From Alcaligenes ammonioxydans (GTDB taxonomy: Bacteria > Pseudomonadota > Gammaproteobacteria > Burkholderiales > Burkholderiaceae_B), in contig NZ_CP049362.1 of assembly GCF_019343455.1 (NCBI RefSeq), positions 2,666,001 to 2,730,000 of the forward strand: 64,000 bases of DNA, given 5' to 3'. Shown here one piece after another: positions 49,517 to 57,030 of this stretch (its first letter is position 1; each line of letters begins with the position of its first letter). The notes beneath the pieces are model-generated. The model had not been told where the DNA came from, did not search any database, and worked only from the letters and a program-made list of their open reading frames with translations. A program made the translations under genes and the position numbers.

Positions 49517-49576
49517 AAAAGGCGGCCTCAGCAGGCCAGGCTCTGTAGGTCCATTCTCCGGCGAGTGCCGCCTTTA
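49517..49576 (-). terminator. possible terminator at the end of the dioxygenase operon
   Basis: AAAGGCGGC and GCCGCCTTT form 9-bp arms 40 nt apart, with an inner GGCC-N6-GGCC stem. The structure is followed by TTTTGA on the minus strand. One arm includes the dioxygenase stop codon. The loop is long for a terminator. Confidence 0.4.
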
Positions 49577-50620
49577 GGCCAGATCGCCTTGCAAAACCCC
49601 CTTGCTGACGACCTCACGCCCATCCAGACTCACGGTGCAATTGCGCATGGGGTAGTCAAAATGGCAATCAGAAAAACGGCCTGCAGCGGGATTCGCTCCG
49701 GTAGAGAAAAGGAAGTTACCGGCAAAGGCACGCAACTCGGTTCCGTTGGTATCGCGCTTGTCGTACATGGCCATGGAATCCCAGCGAGCCGCCGGTGCCA
49801 TGCCCCAGCCCACATGACTGACGGCATAGGCATCCTTGTCGTTCCAGCTGGCGTAATAAGAACGGATCAAATCAGCGTCTACACCCTTGCCCTCAATCGC
49901 CACGACATAATCATTTTCGATACGCAGGGTCACGGCCGACTCCAGATAGCGCTTGAAGGTCAAGTTCACATCTCCGCTATCGAGCACCAACGTCCCATTC
50001 ACACTACCATTGCTGGGGTAGCAAATGCACAGACCTGCCGGCCAGTATCCAAAACTGCCCGGCTTGTCGGCAATTCCGGCGCTGCCGCGTCCAATCACCC
50101 CCTCCAGGCTGACTGTCAGATCCGTGCCGGCCTCGGAGCTAATGTGCATGACACTCGCATCGGTAATCAGCTTGCCGCCAAGATCGCACTTGCCTTGCAG
50201 GTAAGGACTGGGTTTGACCCGCTCCAGAATCTCGGGGTGCTCGTCGCTAATCATCATGATGCGGGCCCCTTTGGCCAGCAGTGCGGCACGCTCGGGCGAA
50301 TGCAGCAGCCCTTCTACGGTGCAGTCCACGATGAACTGGCTGCCTGCCAAAGCCTGGACTATCGGGTCCATGCCTTCCAGAGCCAAGGAAGTCCCAGTCG
50401 AGCGCAGGGCAATATTGCTTTTCAGTCGTGGCGAGACCAGTTTCACATGACAAACCCGCGCCCCCATTTGCGTCAGGGCCAACTCGGCCAGCTCGGCCAG
50501 CACAGAGCGCGATTGCGTCTCGGACAGCACGACTGCCATTTCGCCGGGCTGCACCTTGCACAGTCCAAACACTTCTACAAAATCAGCAATCCACTTGCCT
50601 TCAATATGCTCACGCAACAT
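49574..50620 (-). CDS. NicX-like ring-cleavage dioxygenase (2,5-dihydroxypyridine 5,6-dioxygenase family)
   Basis: This 348-residue protein has the M29-peptidase-like fold of 2,5-dihydroxypyridine dioxygenase NicX, which opens the pyridine ring with Fe(II) and oxygen. The iron set H-HxD is intact: His269 in SHVGWG and His320/Asp322 in CHFDYPMRNC. LLHSPER (106-111) and GNFLFSTGAN also match NicX. ATG 50620 has AAGGAG eight bases upstream. It is the last gene of the flavin reductase-transporter-dioxygenase operon. The exact substrate is not known. A peptidase role is unlikely because the M29 metal ligands are replaced by the NicX pattern. Confidence 0.78.
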   Translation of the reverse strand: MLREHIEGKWIADFVEVFGLCKVQPGEMAVVLSETQSRSVLAELAELALTQMGARVCHVKLVSPRLKSNIALRSTGTSLALEGMDPIVQALAGSQFIVDCTVEGLLHSPERAALLAKGARIMMISDEHPEILERVKPSPYLQGKCDLGGKLITDASVMHISSEAGTDLTVSLEGVIGRGSAGIADKPGSFGYWPAGLCICYPSNGSVNGTLVLDSGDVNLTFKRYLESAVTLRIENDYVVAIEGKGVDADLIRSYYASWNDKDAYAVSHVGWGMAPAARWDSMAMYDKRDTNGTELRAFAGNFLFSTGANPAAGRFSDCHFDYPMRNCTVSLDGREVVSKGVLQGDLA

Positions 50621-50688
50621 CTCACTACTCCTTGAAAATTCAAAAAAGGCGCTGCGCGGCTTTTTCAGCCGGGCGGCGCCTCTGCACA

Positions 50689-52020
50689 TCAGTCGTGCAA
50701 ATCCTTGCCCCTGGTTTCAGGCGAGGCAATCGTGGCCCACAAAGCCAGAACACACAGGCCGATCAAATACCAGTCAAAAACCTGCTTTTGATTGATCGAA
50801 TGCAGCCAGGCTTGCAAATAGGGAGCAGTCCCGCCCGTCAAGGCACCGGCAACCGAATACGGCAGCCCCATGGCGACCGCACGGATGCGTGTCGGGAACT
50901 GCTCAGGAAAAAAAGCGGGCATGATGGCGGTAGGCGCCGAGATCAGAAGCATGCCGCCCATCATGAATACCACCAGACGCCAGATCTCGCCCTGTCCGCC
51001 GGTCAGCACCATCGTCAATGGAATGATGCTGATGATTGAACCGATGGAAAAAAAATACCAGTTCACCTTGCGACCGAAACGATCGGAGAACGCCCCCCAG
51101 AAGATCAGGCACAAGATCAAAAATATATTTGCTCCTACGCCCACCCACATCACCTTGGCAGCAGGCATGCCCAGGGAGGTGATGGCAAAGGTCGGCGCCA
51201 TGATGGCCCAGACGTAATACAAGACGGTGCCGCCTGCCGACAAAGCGAATACACGCAAGCAGGCGCTGCGGTACTTCCAGACCTCGGCCCAGAACACGCG
51301 CGCGCCAGGGCGTGCCGTTTTGCCCGAGGCTTGTGCTGCAGCCTGACGGGCTTTGAACATGGGGGTTTCATCGAGCTTTCTGCGCAGATACAGCGCATAC
51401 ACTCCCAAGGCACCCCCCAATACAAAGGGAACACGCCATGCCCAGGCTCGAACGACCTCCTCCCCCAGCAGACTGGTCAGGCAGGCACTGAGCAAGACCG
51501 CGGCCAGCACGCCAATTGTGACAAACACAAAAACAGAGGACGACCACAGCCCGCGTTTATGAGCGGGCGCCATTTCCGTGACATAAGTGAAGGAAGAAAC
51601 CACCTCACCACCATGACCAATCCCTTGTAACAAGCGCCCCATCAACAAGAACAAAGCGGCAATCGGCCCCACCATGTCATAAGTGGGCGCAATGCCGATC
51701 ACCAGACTGCCCAACGCGGTAATCAACATGGACAAGGTCATGGTGAACCGTCGTCCCTTGCGGTCGGCCAGCCAGCCAAAAAAGATGCCTCCCAGAGGGC
51801 GCATGAAAAAACCAACGGCAAATACTGCCAGCGTGCCCAGCAATGCGGCCAGCGGGTCCTCGCTATGGAAAAACTGCTTGGCAAAATAGGCGGCAAAAAT
51901 CGAATAAGCCGTCCAGTCATACCACTCCAGGGCGTTGCCCGCCCCAACCCCCCAAATAACGCGTCGACGCTGCGCGGCAGTCATGGGCTGCTCGCGCAAA
52001 GATGATGTAGGTGCGTCCAA
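50689..52020 (-). CDS. MHS-type major facilitator transporter
   Basis: This 443-residue proton symporter of the metabolite:H+ symporter branch has 12 hydrophobic helices. The N-terminal signature GNALEWYDW at 29-36 is shared by KgtP, ShiA and ProP relatives. The loop 2-3 motif is GWLADRKGRRFTM. These carriers import organic acids and related compounds. It lies between the flavin reductase and the NicX-like gene, so import of the pathway substrate is likely. The start is probably TTG 52020, with AAGGGG ten bases upstream; ATG 51984 lacks a ribosome site. Confidence 0.85.
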   Translation of the reverse strand: MDAPTSSLREQPMTAAQRRRVIWGVGAGNALEWYDWTAYSIFAAYFAKQFFHSEDPLAALLGTLAVFAVGFFMRPLGGIFFGWLADRKGRRFTMTLSMLITALGSLVIGIAPTYDMVGPIAALFLLMGRLLQGIGHGGEVVSSFTYVTEMAPAHKRGLWSSSVFVFVTIGVLAAVLLSACLTSLLGEEVVRAWAWRVPFVLGGALGVYALYLRRKLDETPMFKARQAAAQASGKTARPGARVFWAEVWKYRSACLRVFALSAGGTVLYYVWAIMAPTFAITSLGMPAAKVMWVGVGANIFLILCLIFWGAFSDRFGRKVNWYFFSIGSIISIIPLTMVLTGGQGEIWRLVVFMMGGMLLISAPTAIMPAFFPEQFPTRIRAVAMGLPYSVAGALTGGTAPYLQAWLHSINQKQVFDWYLIGLCVLALWATIASPETRGKDLHD

Positions 52021-52079
52021 GAGATGTCCCCTTCACTGTGATAGTTGTGCTTCTTGTTTTTTGTTGTTGATCCGGCGGC

Positions 52080-52577
52080 TTAGGCCACCAACTGCGTGAA
52101 ACGAGAGCGATGGAAGATCAATGGCGAGACTTCGCGCTCGATCTGCACATCGTGGATAAGCAATTGCACGGCATCGTGGTCCCCAGCCGGATGCACTTGA
52201 AAAACACTGCAGTCAAACCAGACTGATGCCCCTTTTATATGGACGGCCCCCTCCTCGGTCAGCTCGACCTCGACATCGCTGAAGCGGCTGTCCTTATCCG
52301 GCCCGGCCAGCTGACGACAAATAGCCGCATGTTCAGCACTCAAAATGGATACCCCCAGACGCGAGGCGCGAGACAGCAGCGCCCAGGTCGAGGAACTTTT
52401 CTGTACAAAAAAGGCAGCCAAAGGCGGGGCTAGCGAGACCCCTACGGAAAAGCTGGACGCAACAATGACGTGCGGCTTGCCATCGAGCACGGCTGCAATG
52501 GCTGCAACCCCCGACGGAAAATGCCCGAAGGCTTCGCGTACCGCCCTGGCCCCCAACCCACTTATGCTTTCTTTCAT
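52080..52577 (-). CDS. flavin reductase (HpaC-like), component of a two-component monooxygenase
   Basis: This 165-residue flavin reductase-like protein reduces free FMN or FAD with NAD(P)H for a partner oxygenase. FGHFPSGVAAIAAVLDG and VASSFSVGVSLAPPLAAFFV are family segments, and AGDHDAVQLLIHDVQ is the GDH motif near the C-terminus. The only oxygenase partner in the window is the acyl-CoA-dehydrogenase-fold enzyme at 55558-56793, in a separate operon on the same strand. It is the first gene of its operon, and the 277-bp region upstream carries shared repeats. Confidence 0.87.
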   Translation of the reverse strand: MKESISGLGARAVREAFGHFPSGVAAIAAVLDGKPHVIVASSFSVGVSLAPPLAAFFVQKSSSTWALLSRASRLGVSILSAEHAAICRQLAGPDKDSRFSDVEVELTEEGAVHIKGASVWFDCSVFQVHPAGDHDAVQLLIHDVQIEREVSPLIFHRSRFTQLVA

Positions 52578-52854
52578 GACGATGACCCTGCTCAGGCGTT
52601 AAAGAACCAGAACCCAATAGGTGAAGAGCGTTCCTAGCGCTCACTCACCTGAACTCAATTCTGTTTCGATCGTCATTTATTTGCAATAACAAATTTGCTT
52701 TTACTAGGGTTTGTTTATTGATTTTAGGTATTAACCCTATGAAAAAACGTCGTTTTAAAAGCTATAGACCTATACAATTTATATAAATTTTATTGCGTAT
52801 TATCTTTCTCGATAATTTATTTGCAACAAAACAAGTTATTCTGCAAAGGACAAT
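52578..52854. promoter_or_regulatory. divergent control region of the catabolic island
   Basis: This AT-rich region lies between the flavin reductase operon (minus) and the alpha/beta-barrel gene (plus). It holds ATTTG-N6-CAAAT at 52679-52694, a 12-bp direct repeat ATTTATTTGCAA at 52675 and 52815, and TAGGGTT-N21-AACCCTA at 52705-52739. The block GGTTAATACC (minus) lies at 52727-52736. AAAGGA precedes the plus-strand gene. Confidence 0.6.
52679..52694. promoter_or_regulatory. candidate operator ATTTG-N6-CAAAT, copy 1
   Basis: A perfect inverted repeat with a 6-nt spacer lies 102 bp upstream of the flavin reductase start. The same arms and spacing recur upstream of the monooxygenase (56811-56826), which suggests a shared regulator such as the nearby PaaX-like protein. 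Confidence 0.5.
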
Positions 52855-53160
52855 ATGTACCTGCATATCGTTTTGATGGCGCCCCACGCCCCCATTAAGC
52901 CCGAGCTGGCATCTACACTGGATCACGCTTTTATCCGCATACGGCAAGAGTGCCCAGGGATAGAACGCTTTGAGTGGGTGCCAAATCTGTCACGCAGCTC
53001 CGCACGCTACAGCCATGCTCTGCTATCGGTATTCCGCTCCCAGGAAGCGCTGGACGCTTATAGAGAAAGCGACGCTCATCAGGCCATGCTGGAGGCCATC
53101 ACCCCGCACATTCAGGACATTGTGGTGCTCGATAGCGTGCTGGAGGAAAGCTTGTCCTAA
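52855..53160 (+). CDS. dimeric alpha/beta-barrel (Dabb) domain protein
   Basis: This 101-residue member of the stress-responsive A/B barrel family opens with MYLHIVLMAP and contains FEWVPNLSRSS, YSHALLSVFRSQEALDAYRE and SDAHQAMLEAITPHIQDIVV, the typical beta-alpha-beta pattern. Some relatives are small catalysts or binding proteins in catabolic pathways; the role here is unknown. ATG 52855 has AAAGGA eight bases upstream. It is the first of two plus-strand genes, with PaaX 148 bp downstream. Confidence 0.82.
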   Translation: MYLHIVLMAPHAPIKPELASTLDHAFIRIRQECPGIERFEWVPNLSRSSARYSHALLSVFRSQEALDAYRESDAHQAMLEAITPHIQDIVVLDSVLEESLS

Positions 53161-53308
53161 AACGCCTGAGCGCCCGCTCAGGTACATAGCCCCCCTGCAA
53201 GTCCCAATCCGACAACGCTAGCGCCGCTGGGGTACGCACGGTAAAATGGCTCGCTGCAAACCTACTATCAAAAATGGGTAGCCATCCGCCCCACCACCGG
53301 AAAACAGA

Positions 53309-54205
53309 ATGAAAGCAAGCATCGCGATTGATGAGTTCATCGCCAGCCGCGACCATGGCGAACACGAACAACTTGCCCCGCATCATTACATTCTGACGCT
53401 TTATGGTTTGTTCGCCCGCCCCGCCGGCATCACCATCCCCGTGGCCAGCGTCGTTCAGTTGCTGTCCGATCTGGGCGCAGAGCCCTCCAGCGTGCGCTCT
53501 GCCATCTCACGACTCAAGAAAAAAGGCGTGCTGATCAGCCAGCCGGCCGCCTCAGGAAAAGGCTATGCCTTGGCCGCCGAGCTTGAGCCTCACATGCAAG
53601 CGGGCGACGAACGGATTTTCTCCTCGCCCTCCATGAATATCCGAGACCCTTGGCTCCTGGTCTCTTTCTCCGTTCCCGAAAGTGAGCGTCAGAATCGCCA
53701 CAAGATTCGAACGGGCCTGTCACGGATGGGGTTCGGCACGGTAAATGCTGGCTTGTATATAGGCCCGGCTCGCTTGCAGGCCGAAGCCGTGGAGTACATC
53801 CGCGAGCACCAACTGTGGCCTTATATTGAGCTGTTCACCTGTGAGCCTAGCGGCCTGAGCGATATTCAGGAAAAAATCTCCCGCTGGTGGAATTGGGACA
53901 AGCTGGCTAATGAGTACCAGTCTTTTTTGAACGCGTATCAGGACGAGGTTGAAGTCTGGCAAACCGCTTTGCGCCAAGGCACGGGCGACCCTCTGGAAGC
54001 CTTCCGCCTCTATATGCCCATGGTGACCCGTTGGCGCCGACTGCCCTTTCTGGACCCCGGCCTGGCACCCGAGCTGTTGCCAGACAACTGGGTAGGCAAT
54101 TCGGCCCGCAAACTGTTTGGTGACTTGCATCGACTGCTGAGCCCCTTGAGCTCGCAACACGTGCAGCAGGCCATTCCAAACTGGAAGGCCCGCGGGACGG
54201 ACTAA
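53309..54205 (+). CDS. PaaX-family transcriptional regulator
   Basis: This 298-residue regulator resembles PaaX, the repressor that senses phenylacetyl-CoA. Residues 25-75 (HHYILTLYGLFARPAG through SSVRSAISRLKKKGVL) form the winged helix-turn-helix. The middle part, WLLVSFSVPESERQNRHKIR with LSRMGFGTVNAGLYIGP, is the PaaX central domain, and a C-terminal domain follows. It lies between the two catabolic operons, so it probably controls them. The ligand may be an acyl-CoA or an aromatic acid. It converges with the carboxylesterase gene, 14 bp apart, with no terminator seen. Confidence 0.87.
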   Translation: MKASIAIDEFIASRDHGEHEQLAPHHYILTLYGLFARPAGITIPVASVVQLLSDLGAEPSSVRSAISRLKKKGVLISQPAASGKGYALAAELEPHMQAGDERIFSSPSMNIRDPWLLVSFSVPESERQNRHKIRTGLSRMGFGTVNAGLYIGPARLQAEAVEYIREHQLWPYIELFTCEPSGLSDIQEKISRWWNWDKLANEYQSFLNAYQDEVEVWQTALRQGTGDPLEAFRLYMPMVTRWRRLPFLDPGLAPELLPDNWVGNSARKLFGDLHRLLSPLSSQHVQQAIPNWKARGTD

Positions 54206-54219
54206 GTCCACTCCTTTCG

Positions 54220-55554
54220 TTACGCCCCTGCAAAACGAGCGATGTCACCCATCAAGTCCTGGGCGACACGCTCAAACCGCTCCAGCGTCACCCCCTGCAT
54301 CATGGGTGCATCCTGCCAGGCCTGGAAGTTGCCAAACTGGAACGGCAAATCAAAACAATGCCCACTGAACACAGCCTCCAGCGGGCTTTGTTCCGTGAAG
54401 TCACTCCAAATCACAGAATGCCCCGCTGCCTTCAAACTGGCCGCATAGTGCGTGGGAAAACGCTGAAATTGCAACCATGACGAGGCTGCAACAACTTGCC
54501 GATACGGCGTCAGGCCCGACCCCGCTCCCTGATACATTCCATTTCGTAACAGAATGGCGGGCAAATCCCCCACAGGCCATTCACCCAACGCCTGATCAAC
54601 CTGCTCTTGCGTCGCCTGCCGATGAAAAGGCACGTCAAAAAAGAACACCGAGGACTCTTGGGCAGTACAGCGCAGATACACCGCCTGTGCATGGCAGGCG
54701 TGCGCCGCCCAGTCAGGATTCCATAAATCCGGTGGCATCCCGGCACTGATCACAGGCAAGAATGCTGACGGAGCATGAGCCAAACGTGGTGGTTCTTTGT
54801 CCAAAGCCATCATGCCGTGCTGCATCACGATATCCACATCCGCGGTCAGCCACTGATCGCCCAGGCTTTGTCGCACGCGTTCCGTGGTTTTTCTTTGCTG
54901 CTCGGGCGACCATGGCGTGCGCGTTCCCATGCTGAGCAAGGCCACACGATCAATCCAGCCTCGTGTGGACTCCAGCACGCTAAGCAAATGCGCGTACCAG
55001 CCACCCGCCGACTGCCCCATCAAGGTGATCCTGTCCGGATCGCCACCAAAGGCGTGGATGCGATCCTTCACCCATTGGAGCGCCAAGCGCAAATCGGCTG
55101 CCGGCAAGGGCAAGTCGTCCGCTTGTGCATCACCCAAGTGCCCCAAGGCACCGAGGCGATAATTCACATTGACCACCACCATGCCCTGCGCTGCCAGACG
55201 GGTGCCGTCATACCAGTCCAAAGAAGCGCCGCCACTCATCCAGGCACCGCCGTGGATAAAGAACAGCACGGGCAGACCTTGCGCTTGGGCAGGTGCCCAC
55301 ACATTCAGAAAATATGCGTCTTCAGATTGCGGATTGGCACTGCCTGCGCCCATGACCGCAGCAAGACGGCTAGGGCGCTGCGGAAAGACAGGCACCTGAT
55401 CCAGCGATGTCGCTGCCATCCGCCCGATCGCCGCCTGCGCCGCTTCAAAACGGCGCGTGCCTTGGGCGTAACGCAGGCCATACCAGGCCTGCACTTTCAC
55501 GCCATCGGCACGACAACGACGCGAGGGGGCATGGATCCGCAATGTCGCCGTCAT
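54220..55554 (-). CDS. type-B carboxylesterase
   Basis: This 444-residue alpha/beta hydrolase is of the carboxylesterase type B family. SEDAYFLNVWAP is the family signature, HGGAW (101-105) the oxyanion hole, and GQSAGG gives the nucleophile Ser182. His399 in SGHCFDLPFQF is the likely catalytic base, and the acid may be the Glu in CTAQESSVFF. No signal peptide is seen, so it is cytoplasmic. It starts 3 bp after the monooxygenase stop, so they form an operon. It may release an alcohol, phenol or acid from an ester or carbamate substrate of the pathway. Confidence 0.87.
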   Translation of the reverse strand: MTATLRIHAPSRRCRADGVKVQAWYGLRYAQGTRRFEAAQAAIGRMAATSLDQVPVFPQRPSRLAAVMGAGSANPQSEDAYFLNVWAPAQAQGLPVLFFIHGGAWMSGGASLDWYDGTRLAAQGMVVVNVNYRLGALGHLGDAQADDLPLPAADLRLALQWVKDRIHAFGGDPDRITLMGQSAGGWYAHLLSVLESTRGWIDRVALLSMGTRTPWSPEQQRKTTERVRQSLGDQWLTADVDIVMQHGMMALDKEPPRLAHAPSAFLPVISAGMPPDLWNPDWAAHACHAQAVYLRCTAQESSVFFFDVPFHRQATQEQVDQALGEWPVGDLPAILLRNGMYQGAGSGLTPYRQVVAASSWLQFQRFPTHYAASLKAAGHSVIWSDFTEQSPLEAVFSGHCFDLPFQFGNFQAWQDAPMMQGVTLERFERVAQDLMGDIARFAGA

Positions 55555-55557
55555 GGC

Positions 55558-56793
55558 TTAAAGCTTGTTGGAAATATAAGGCGTACCGGTCATGCCGTTG
55601 CCGTGAAGCTCGTAGCCCATCGGTGCCGTAATCGAAGCATGGCGAGTGCCTGTATTGATATCGCGCCACATGCGGCCCAGCAGACTGTTTTCCGCAAAGG
55701 AGGCAGTGCCATGCAACCAGCACAGATTATTCACCGCATCCACCAGTTCATGCCCAGCATGACCGATCCCGGCGCGGTGGCGGGCACGCAGCGCCAAGGG
55801 CATGGGCACTATGCCAGAAGCAGCCGCATCAATCTGCGCTGCAGCGCGCTCCAACAATAAACGCGCGCTATCAATCTGAATACTGGCTGCCCCCAGGTTC
55901 TGAACGAACGCCCCTGAGTCCGACTGTTTCGTGTAATGGGTGTAGGTAATGCCACGCTTGCCACTGACGCCGCTGGTGAAATCCATCGCGGCCTGAGCCG
56001 CACCTAACGATGGCGCTTGAATGCAGGTCGACATGGTCAAATGCGGGGTCAAACGACGGCCAAATGTGGCCAGAGGGTCTTGCTCCTGTACATCCCCCAT
56101 CAATTGCTGAAAGGTAATCAGTCGCTCTTTAGGCACCCACAGGTTTTCAGCCACCATCGTGTTGGAGCCCGAACCGCGCATACCGATGGTGTACCAGGTA
56201 TCCTGAATTTCAAACTCATCACGACGCATTAACACAAAGCCCACGGTGGGCTCGGCCTGCTCGCTTTCTTTAATGAACAAAATCCCAAGCGCCCAGTCCG
56301 AGTGATTGCTGTTCGAGGCGAAGGGCCACTTGCCTGTGATACGCCAGCCTTCGCCGTCGGGCCTTGCTGTGCCTTGGGGCTGGGCAAAGATAGACGCAGC
56401 GCGGATGGGGCCATCCGCAAACACTTCATCCAGCATGGCATCGCTGAAACGATTGGCAAGCATCACCGAACCATTTGAAATCACCACACACCAGGCGGCC
56501 GCCGGATCGTAATAGCCCACCGCGCTGGCGCACTGTAACAGCATCTCGGCCCCACCCTCGTAACCACCGTAACGCTTCAAGGCTGAAATACGCCAGGCTC
56601 CGGTGGACTCCAAAGCTTGAACCGTCTCGTCTGACAACACGCGATTACGGTCAGCCTGAGGGGCCAACTCGCGTAGCAGCGGGCCGATGTCGTGGATACG
56701 TTCCAGAATCTCCTCTGTCTCCTGACGGGACGGGGCCTGCGTGACGATCGTCCGCTCACGCTCGACAAGCAATGGTGCTCCTGTGATAGCCAT
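55558..56793 (-). CDS. flavin-dependent monooxygenase, acyl-CoA dehydrogenase fold (group D)
   Basis: This 411-residue oxygenase uses reduced flavin from a separate reductase to hydroxylate an aromatic compound, like HsaA or the C2 component of 4-hydroxyphenylacetate hydroxylase. WRITGKWPFASNSNHSDWAL and WYTIGMRGSGSNTMVAENLW are typical. RDINTGTRHA at 377-386 lies near the active site, and ELHGNGMTGTP ends the protein. The acyl-CoA dehydrogenase catalytic Glu is not evident, which favours an oxygenase. ATG 56793 has AAGGAG seven bases upstream. The flavin reductase at 52080-52577 is the likely partner. Confidence 0.83.
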   Translation of the reverse strand: MAITGAPLLVERERTIVTQAPSRQETEEILERIHDIGPLLRELAPQADRNRVLSDETVQALESTGAWRISALKRYGGYEGGAEMLLQCASAVGYYDPAAAWCVVISNGSVMLANRFSDAMLDEVFADGPIRAASIFAQPQGTARPDGEGWRITGKWPFASNSNHSDWALGILFIKESEQAEPTVGFVLMRRDEFEIQDTWYTIGMRGSGSNTMVAENLWVPKERLITFQQLMGDVQEQDPLATFGRRLTPHLTMSTCIQAPSLGAAQAAMDFTSGVSGKRGITYTHYTKQSDSGAFVQNLGAASIQIDSARLLLERAAAQIDAAASGIVPMPLALRARHRAGIGHAGHELVDAVNNLCWLHGTASFAENSLLGRMWRDINTGTRHASITAPMGYELHGNGMTGTPYISNKL

Positions 56794-57030
56794 AACCGCT
56801 CCTTAGAATTATTTGATATTTCAAATTTATAGCCATCGTTAAATAATCGCAATATTAATAACCAGAAAAACATACAAAACCCCTTGTTTTATTGGGTTTA
56901 TAGGGGTATTTACCTAGTAAAAATTACAAATCATCCGCCGTTTCAATTGCATAAAACTAACGATCAAAAATATTTTGAGCACAAAAGCAGAAATAAAAAA
57001 GGCGCAGAACAGCCTGCCAAAGCATGGGGC
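56794..57030 (-). promoter_or_regulatory. control region of the monooxygenase-esterase operon
   Basis: This AT-rich 240 bp contains ATTTG-N6-CAAAT at 56811-56826, ACCCC-N19-GGGGT at 56879-56907 and GGTAAATACC (minus) at 56905-56914. The GGT block and the AATAAA-rich sequence next to it resemble the control region at 52705-52739 in the same orientation. Confidence 0.55.
56811..56826. promoter_or_regulatory. candidate operator ATTTG-N6-CAAAT, copy 2
   Basis: A perfect inverted repeat has the same arms and spacing as copy 1 and lies 18 bp upstream of the monooxygenase start codon. Binding there could block transcription or translation initiation. Confidence 0.5.

Follow-up and report, generated by a model that had tools for sequence, protein, structure and literature searches.

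A conserved seven-gene catabolic island, carried as an accessory module in the genus Alcaligenes, lies within the 64,000-nucleotide stretch of Alcaligenes ammonioxydans DNA analyzed here (the window). It encodes a ring-cleavage dioxygenase of the NicX family in which the iron site is intact and the substrate pocket is changed, and which, judging from the pocket alignment, probably acts on a substrate other than 2,5-dihydroxypyridine (2,5-DHP). A sequence-only reading had proposed an uncharacterized catabolic island here, and the island proved real, conserved, and apparently undescribed: all seven reading frames were found at the coordinates it gave, and the gene set recurs within Alcaligenes and, as a five-gene core, in a second genus. 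Scans of the seven proteins with Pfam and NCBIfam models, together with homologue comparisons and motif searches, yielded the following features:

49574 to 50620, minus strand: NicX-family non-heme Fe(II) ring-cleavage dioxygenase, about 348 aa (NicX match, homologue lengths, and pocket alignment)
50689 to 52020, minus strand: MFS importer (PF07690; nearest to metabolite/H+ symporter family 2A0106, TIGR00883, below cut-off)
52080 to 52577, minus strand: flavin reductase (PF01613), presumed reductase component of a two-component monooxygenase
52669 to 52688, plus strand: 20-bp operator-like box ATCGTCATTTATTTGCAATA, in the intergenic region that separates the flavin reductase gene from the Dabb gene (motif search)
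52816 to 52829, plus strand: shorter second copy of the box, TTTATTTGCAACAA (motif search)
52855 to 53160, plus strand: Dabb alpha/beta-barrel protein (PF07876)
53309 to 54205, plus strand: PaaX-type regulator (three PaaX domains)
54220 to 55554, minus strand: type B carboxylesterase (COesterase, PF00135; S182, E300, and H399 in its own numbering)
55558 to 56793, minus strand: group D flavin monooxygenase of acyl-CoA-dehydrogenase fold (PF08028; nearest solved relative XiaF)
56835 to 56854, plus strand: the 20-bp box again (ATCGTTAAATAATCGCAATA), ahead of the operon of monooxygenase and esterase genes (motif search)

A search of gene neighborhoods, which the earlier reading had suggested as a check across Alcaligenaceae, rightly as to the family, located the island in 8 of the 10 Alcaligenes genomes in our genus comparison; of the two without it, one (G062) has a clean empty site and the other (G055) a 1.7-kb gap at the site. 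In a second genus (g27), a five-gene core of monooxygenase, esterase, PaaX, flavin reductase, and dioxygenase genes stands together in rearranged order in 3 of 3 genomes, those counted being the three with the monooxygenase at E ≤ 1e-80. The MFS gene also belongs to the cluster at two of these loci (the third contig stops past the dioxygenase), and a gene for an EthD-type protein adjoins the dioxygenase gene. Among 399 genomes sampled from the order, the monooxygenase was found at the same threshold in the source genome only. The grouping of the island genes exceeds chance, because five of them recur rearranged in the second genus and because contig sharing among homologues lies far above the null. 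With equal contig size as a proxy for the same contig, dioxygenase and monooxygenase homologues share 17 equal-length contigs (offset-null mean 0.8, maximum 3) and monooxygenase and esterase homologues share 35 (mean 0.4, maximum 3), the latter including contigs of Arthrobacter and Corynebacterium; this test took the top-ranked rows of each list (120 of 7974, 120 of 281, and 118 of 1833 matches, two esterase rows having no length). A literature search lying mostly outside subscription journals returned no description of this gene set, and the accessible portion of the text on skatole degradation (SkaAB) contains none of the terms esterase, M29, or PaaX. The accessory distribution (8 of 10 genomes, with the clean empty site) and the lack of downstream central-pathway genes in the island would suit a role mainly in detoxifying an antimicrobial aromatic rather than in growth; an importer, ring cleavage, and a hydrolase in combination are, however, more typical of catabolism, and we consider such a role improbable.

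The dioxygenase matches NicX of P. putida KT2440, a 2,5-DHP dioxygenase (PDB 7cn3), at 1.3e-57 over about 326 residues (39-364 against 14-339), and NicX was its sole solved relative by sequence search. The family scans gave zero Pfam or NCBIfam matches for this protein; PF26233 is the precomputed label of its 120 listed homologues. Most of these are about 348 aa long, and the start of the gene is therefore probably at 50620 rather than 50689. Using the NicX residue numbering and roles given in the available part of PMC7910607, alignment bears out the earlier statement that the NicX iron set is intact: H265, S302, H318, and D320 are all present, as they are in all compared loci and all 120 listed homologues, and R293, L104, and H105 are also retained. 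Unlike NicX, however, the island enzyme has S in place of E177, Y in place of H189, and R in place of V175. In the accessible text of PMC7910607, E177 and H189 bind the substrate at its 2-oxygen and ring nitrogen, activity is lost in the E177A/H189A double mutant, V175 is placed in an entry channel at a distance from the active site, and cleavage falls on C5-C6 of 2,5-DHP to give N-formylmaleamic acid, activity on other substrates being described there as so far unreported. Of the 120 listed close homologues, none has E177, one has H189, and 85 carry both S177 and Y189; this common pocket partly reflects descent, since the listed sequences are close relatives of the query. One dioxygenase with the S/Y pocket, 71% identical (L059), adjoins a different hydrolase, and no monooxygenase was found within 12 kb on the single side that could be read, which counts against the general scheme proposed below.

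Two further NicX-like paralogs lie elsewhere in the genome (L002 and L003) and serve as controls: both keep E177 and H189, and both have F rather than H at position 105, a replacement (H105F) with which NicX is reported active in the part of PMC7910607 consulted. A further 2,5-DHP route, in which the monooxygenase would form 2,5-DHP, the dioxygenase would form N-formylmaleamate, and other loci would supply the remaining steps, could draw on NicX being the only solved relative and on these two additional loci. Against it, the two residues whose joint mutation inactivates NicX are replaced in the island enzyme and kept in the paralogs, so that a third 2,5-DHP enzyme would be unneeded; we regard 2,5-DHP as an unlikely substrate of the island dioxygenase and the route as a whole as very improbable. 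The earlier observation that the deformylase, amidase, and isomerase of the nicotinate and picolinate routes are missing was confirmed for the island by reading frames and family scans. No deformylase, maleamate amidase, or maleate isomerase gene was found in the island or among the further neighbors scanned in the second genus; in this, too, the island differs from the NicX system.

The monooxygenase and flavin reductase, read earlier as a two-component reduced-flavin system, proved to be of group D type in the family scans, with a PF08028 oxygenase and a PF01613 reductase in one cluster that is conserved in the second genus. The best NCBIfam model for the oxygenase is HsaA (168 bits against a cut-off of 450). 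Among solved relatives XiaF scores highest (PDB 5lvu, 241 bits), and the HsaAB and HpaH-type aromatic hydroxylases, which likewise pair a group D oxygenase with a flavin reductase, are weaker matches (134 and 78 bits, the former for HsaA). Equivalents of S121, F123, and H371 of XiaF, part of the XiaF/XiaP indole hydroxylase of xiamycin biosynthesis, are all present in the island protein (S-I-F plus H, compared with S-V-F in XiaF and S-S-Y in HsaA). Because the Ser and His also occur in HsaA, this residue set is a weak test; the Phe, moreover, is replaced by I or L in 15 of the 120 monooxygenase homologues listed. The kept residues would fit a predicted XiaF-like indole hydroxylase activity. 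According to the available part of PMC5481743, indole was the only one of six aromatics that XiaF converted, and XiaF, unlike a catabolic island enzyme, acts as an indoloterpenoid cyclase and belongs to a biosynthetic cluster.

The remaining proteins also answered to their earlier descriptions. The esterase belongs to PF00135 with an intact Ser-Glu-His triad: S182, E300, and H399 are invariant in 17 of 17 aligned sequences, and E300 and H399 are what we take to be the triad members of a type B carboxylesterase. Its best solved matches are p-nitrobenzyl esterases, and its gene lies 3 bp from that of the monooxygenase. The importer is an MFS protein (PF07690) whose best NCBIfam model, TIGR00883 for a metabolite/H+ symporter, scores 332 bits against a cut-off of 443. 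The regulator contains the N-terminal, central, and C-terminal PaaX domains (PF07848, PF20803, and PF08223); at 151.6 bits it falls below the equivalog cut-off of TIGR02277 (264.55) and is for this reason probably distinct from the phenylacetate regulator itself.

The 20-bp box, which contains the inverted repeat TTATT-TGC-AATA(A), precedes both catabolic operons, which suggests that the two are under common control and bears on the co-induction that the earlier reading asked about. At up to two mismatches these are the only 2 sites in the 3.77-Mb genome, and a reversed control pattern gave 0 sites genome-wide at the same tolerance; as the pattern was built from the two window sites and their orthologues, its presence there is by construction, and the evidence consists of its absence elsewhere and its conservation. 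All 8 Alcaligenes loci retain the 140-bp spacing between the full and shorter boxes, and the monooxygenase-side box has 0 or 1 mismatch in seven of them and 3 in the eighth (L086). The loci of the second genus match only at 3 to 4 mismatches. A short form of the box, TTTATTTGCAAYAA, occurs three times in the window at up to two mismatches, compared with 0.65 expected, a count reached by 3 of 100 shuffles and so mildly rare. Conservation in the intergenic region that separates the flavin reductase gene from the Dabb gene extends beyond the boxes to a further stretch near its middle. A promoter scan found 2 sites compared with 4.0 expected. The PaaX-type protein would be the candidate binder of the box.

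From these parts we infer a scheme, including all of its reactions and their order, that we hold with about even confidence: a single PaaX-associated module for hydroxylation, ring cleavage, and hydrolysis of a nitrogen heteroaromatic. The flavin reductase (52080 to 52577) would provide the reduced flavin with which the group D monooxygenase (55558 to 56793) would hydroxylate the ring beside its N-CH carbon, giving an HO-C=CH-NH unit. The dioxygenase (49574 to 50620) would then use O2 to split that C-C bond into a carboxylate and an N-formyl group, in the manner of NicX on 2,5-DHP, and the esterase (54220 to 55554) would hydrolyze the product, an N-formyl compound or an ester; the MFS protein would carry substrate or product, and PaaX would control both catabolic operons via the shared box. 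The earlier reading of (hetero)aromatic ring opening is partly supported: enzyme families suited to hydroxylation, cleavage, and hydrolysis are present, and the dioxygenase should not be taken for an enzyme of the nicotinate or picolinate type, because E177 and H189 are replaced.

The position of the esterase allows both orders. In our scheme it may take the place of a deformylase once the ring is open, instead of cleaving an ester or carbamate beforehand; to our knowledge, no deformylase is known in this esterase family. The reverse order, put forward in the earlier reading, would have an imported aromatic ester or carbamate hydrolyzed first and the freed hydroxy compound then hydroxylated and ring-cleaved. 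The 3-bp spacing, the 35 shared contigs, and the p-nitrobenzyl esterase matches speak for that order, and the esterase may indeed act next to the monooxygenase, since this pair was followed to more distant homologues than the dioxygenase. An N-formyl ring-opened product would nevertheless need a hydrolase, of which the island has no second one, and an alpha/beta hydrolase gene adjoins related dioxygenases (L063, L060, and L064), as fits a step after cleavage; we judge the esterase-first order rather unlikely.

As to the substrate of the preferred scheme, our best single guess, held tentatively, is indole, passing through indoxyl and N-formylanthranilate to anthranilate and formate, because indoxyl has the HO-C=CH-NH unit and XiaF is the nearest solved relative of the monooxygenase. 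Indole passes membranes unaided; against this guess, the MFS protein is nearest to an organic-acid/zwitterion symporter family, and R175 is new in the pocket. No anthranilate genes were found in the island. As a firm assignment indole was dropped, since an iif-like cluster (SDR, a PF17885 styrene/indole-monooxygenase-type protein, flavin reductase, and AraC regulator, at about 72-78 kb) lies elsewhere in the same genome and the island may therefore be unneeded for indole. If the indole guess holds, the island resembles the iif/ind indole degradation cluster in using a two-component flavin oxygenase and reductase on a small N-heteroaromatic; it differs in that StyA-type oxygenase, SDR, and IifA families were absent from the seven island proteins in the family scans. 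The accessible parts of PMC4577076 and PMC6221969 align IifC with styrene monooxygenase StyA and describe IifB as SDR-type and IifA as dienelactone-hydrolase-like; for indole breakdown in Alcaligenes, the intermediates were described earlier than the genes (PMC6221969).

Alternatively, the island would degrade a carboxylated N-heteroaromatic, such as a hydroxypicolinate- or pyrrole-carboxylate-like acid, imported by the MFS protein and held by R175. This is another substrate within the same scheme, its probability overlapping that of the preferred explanation, and we treat it as a tentative possibility. The change of V175 to R alongside those at E177 and H189, the closeness of the importer to family 2A0106, and the presence of R/S/Y-pocket dioxygenases (L061, L063, and L064) near Peripla_BP_6 binding proteins of ABC importers all point that way, and R175 may indicate a carboxylate on the substrate. 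XiaF, however, works on indole rings (PMC5481743, as far as accessible), and the entry-channel location of V175 (PMC7910607, likewise) means that R175 may miss the substrate.

Other aromatic genes were noted alongside. A candidate anthranilate dioxygenase was rejected: the protein that best matches the AntA model scores 446 bits there but 765 bits with the model for benzoate dioxygenase (cut-off 781). Near 52-56 kb, a salicylyl-CoA 5-hydroxylase-type (PRK08255) cluster includes a gentisate-dioxygenase-like gene. At E ≤ 1e-200, PRK08255 occurs in 146 of the 268 genomes of the family, namely in all 11 that have the island monooxygenase and in 135 of the 257 others, a weak association in a count not corrected for kinship; G062, which lacks the island, has PRK08255.

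Should the indole reading be correct, the island would constitute a second, unrelated bacterial indole route (group D oxygenation to indoxyl, then direct O2 cleavage by the NicX-family enzyme giving N-formylanthranilate, which would be hydrolyzed to anthranilate and formate), a prospect that we consider doubtful; it would provide genes for the type of N-formylanthranilate route put forward in 1953, as well as the first non-pyridine substrate of the NicX family. More broadly, the island represents a NicX-family branch with an intact iron site, a rebuilt substrate grip, and a flavin hydroxylase and an esterase as recurring partners. Several of its listed homologues bear the database name "2,5-dihydroxypyridine 5,6-dioxygenase," a label that calls for caution in this branch given that E177 occurs in 0 of 120, and the branch offers a direct starting point in the search for new ring-opening chemistry on N-heteroaromatics.

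The seven reading frames of the island lie where the sequence-only reading had placed them, and its family calls also hold: an MFS importer, a type B carboxylesterase, a group D oxygenase of the acyl-CoA-dehydrogenase fold, a flavin reductase, a NicX-like dioxygenase, a Dabb protein and a PaaX-type regulator. The minus strand carries two operons, monooxygenase–esterase and flavin reductase–MFS–dioxygenase, and the plus strand carries Dabb and PaaX, transcribed away from the reductase operon. For the dioxygenase, a start at 50620 is probable, given that its listed homologues are mostly close to 348 aa in length. The genome (3.77 Mb) is a single contig, and the G+C content of the island genes is similar to that of their flanks.

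Named contigs encoding dioxygenases 97–99% identical to that of the island are from Alcaligenes. Dioxygenase and monooxygenase are present in 8 of the 10 genomes of the genus, and seven other loci share the gene order of the window. The island-free genome G062 provides a clean empty site, in which icd is followed, after a 0.13-kb gap, by a TPR gene and then by Smr, trxB and ftsK; in G055, also island-free, the distance from icd to Smr is 1.7 kb, and neither a TPR match nor an island gene is found. At E <= 1e-80, the monooxygenase was found in 11 of 268 family genomes. Three of these belong to another genus, g27 (a sample including one MAG, L007), where monooxygenase, esterase, PaaX, flavin reductase and dioxygenase again occur together in a different order; an EthD-type protein is encoded close to the dioxygenase, and an MFS gene is visible in 2 of 3 loci. 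The island is a discrete, conserved accessory module.

In NicX, the iron is bound by H265, S302, H318 and D320, L104–H105 forms a gate, and E177 and H189 hold the ring nitrogen and 2-oxygen of 2,5-dihydroxypyridine (DHP); as described there, the E177A/H189A double mutant loses activity (PMC7910607). All four ligands are present in the window dioxygenase, which bears out the earlier description of its iron set as intact, and L104, H105 and R293 are retained. Relative to NicX, however, E177 is replaced by S, H189 by Y and V175 by R, and orthologous island loci share these replacements. Among the 120 listed dioxygenase homologues, S177 occurs with Y189 in 85 and A177 with Y189 in 26, while E177 occurs in none and H189 in one. 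Two NicX-like paralogs in the same genome (L002 and L003, with equal scores and 39% identity to the island enzyme) serve as an internal control for the pocket because they keep both E177 and H189; they carry F at 105, a residue with which NicX is reported to remain active (PMC7910607). Judged by its non-canonical pocket, the island enzyme is NicX-like but not a DHP enzyme. Other relatives, in other loci, combine G, V, N or T at position 177 with H or N at 189. The paralogs L002 and L003 each lie, with their neighbours, in one of two genomic blocks (L080:8423-10995 and L081:8193-10765) that are separated by about 49 kb and 98.8% identical over 2573 bp, a recent duplication.

Dioxygenases with the S/Y/R pocket, 57–60% identical to that of the island, occur in L060, L061, L063 and L064. 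An alpha/beta hydrolase adjoins the dioxygenase in L063 (PcaD-like), L060 and L064, a group A flavin monooxygenase is found in L060, L061 and L063, and a YCII protein in L063. Two of these loci encode malonyl-CoA synthase (L061 and, from the opposite strand, L063), and L061 also encodes malonyl-CoA decarboxylase:

L061:179-6924, dioxygenase beside group A flavin monooxygenase and malonyl-CoA synthase
L063:8755-14365, dioxygenase beside group A flavin monooxygenase and malonyl-CoA synthase

The substrate of this pair may release malonate. The set of flavin monooxygenase, NicX-like dioxygenase, alpha/beta hydrolase and small alpha/beta-barrel protein seems to have been assembled from differing families, which suggests that the dioxygenase branch serves several substrates and agrees with hydroxylation first, then ring cleavage, then hydrolysis. 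On plasmids of Ensifer and Aminobacter, gene runs (L067:9998-17726 and L068:9245-18373) combine a NicX-like dioxygenase ('peptidase M29') with an acyl-CoA-dehydrogenase-type protein, an alpha/beta hydrolase, a TetR regulator, a glutamine-synthetase-like protein, a flavin reductase and an APC permease.

As a proxy for co-occurrence, we counted equal sizes of the longest contig between homologue lists, using the best 120 of each. The dioxygenase and monooxygenase lists share at least 17 sizes (mean 0.8 and maximum 3 under the offset null), the monooxygenase and esterase lists at least 35 (mean 0.4, maximum 3) and the dioxygenase and esterase lists at least 18 (a count without a null); at least 10 are common to all three. 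Matching records include Paraburkholderia, Cupriavidus, Kerstersia, Vandammella, Bradyrhizobium, Arthrobacter and Corynebacterium, the last three with monooxygenase–esterase pairs only among these lists. Within the same lists, at least 25 of the dioxygenase homologues P0001–P0044 have a monooxygenase or esterase partner, and none of P0045–P0120 does. A counter-example is L059 (genome G206), whose S/Y-pocket dioxygenase (71% identical) adjoins an alpha/beta hydrolase other than the island's; the 12 kb that can be read to one side contain no monooxygenase.

The two catabolic operons are apparently under common control, to judge from a shared upstream motif. Between the reductase and Dabb genes, TTTATTTGCAAYAA occurs twice, the copies spaced 140 bp apart, with 0–1 mismatch in all 8 Alcaligenes loci; since a central stretch of this intergenic region is conserved as well, the repeat is suggestive but not unique. 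A longer 20-bp box encloses the first copy and is also present upstream of the monooxygenase. This pattern was derived from these very sites, and the evidence lies in rarity and conservation rather than presence: two sites at <=3 mismatches in the window against 0.03 expected, and two at <=2 mismatches in the whole genome, where the reversed control pattern has no site. Among orthologue loci, the reductase-side box is unchanged in 8/8, the monooxygenase-side box has 0–1 mismatch in 7/8, and g27 loci match only at 3–4 mismatches. PaaX is predicted to bind this box.

Among solved structures, the monooxygenase matches XiaF best (241 bits; HsaA, 134). XiaF is reported to convert indole alone of six aromatics tried, with S121, F123 and H371 surrounding the indole ring (PMC5481743). 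All three residues are retained in the window enzyme (HsaA has S, Y, H), and the Phe is kept in 105 of the best 120 listed homologues, with I or L in the other 15; this is supportive, though not strong, evidence for a XiaF-like role. The esterase residues S182, E300 and H399 are invariant in 17/17 aligned sequences; among solved structures, the enzyme matches p-nitrobenzyl esterases best.

NicX is described as converting the HO-C=CH-N part of DHP to a carboxylate and an N-formyl group (PMC7910607). The altered pocket would fit a substrate lacking the 2-oxygen but bearing HO-C=CH-NH. Indoxyl is one such compound; the dioxygenase would cleave it to N-formylanthranilate, from which a hydrolase would free formate and anthranilate. 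This proposed chemistry avoids isatin, unlike both routes set against it. Alcaligenes faecalis IITR89 uses indole as sole carbon source and forms indigo (PMC4777759). Against indole as the island substrate stand the importer type and R175, which suggest a charged compound, and an iif-like cluster elsewhere in the genome:

G000:C1, about 72.4-77.7 kb (L106:8433-13734), iif-like indole oxygenase cluster with SDR, PF17885 oxygenase, flavin reductase, FAD oxidoreductase and AraC regulator

The top PDB matches of its oxygenase are 9lrq and 7z4x; a dienelactone-hydrolase-like IifA was not found among ten scanned proteins of the region. PF17885 matches occur in 11 of 13 genomes checked (10/11 with the island, 1/2 without). 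IifC, aligned with StyA in its description (PMC4577076), differs in oxygenase type from the island monooxygenase. Also on this contig, a cluster at about 47.3-56 kb (L079:330-8980) encodes indolepyruvate-oxidoreductase-like subunits, a PRK08255 salicylyl-CoA 5-hydroxylase-type protein (1306 bits, above the cut-off) and a gentisate/5-aminosalicylate-dioxygenase-like protein (below it), and might account for the conversion of anthranilate to gentisate, an unassigned step described in Alcaligenes (PMC6221969).

Because the iif-like cluster, the importer and R175 weigh against it, we regard indole as the best single candidate but less likely than not to be the substrate, and give even chances to the general scheme of hydroxylation, O2-dependent ring cleavage and hydrolysis of an N-heteroaromatic; the odds of rival readings overlap with both and do not sum to one. 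No description of the module was found in the literature searched. The island is a real, conserved and apparently co-regulated catabolic module built from enzymes of known kinds.
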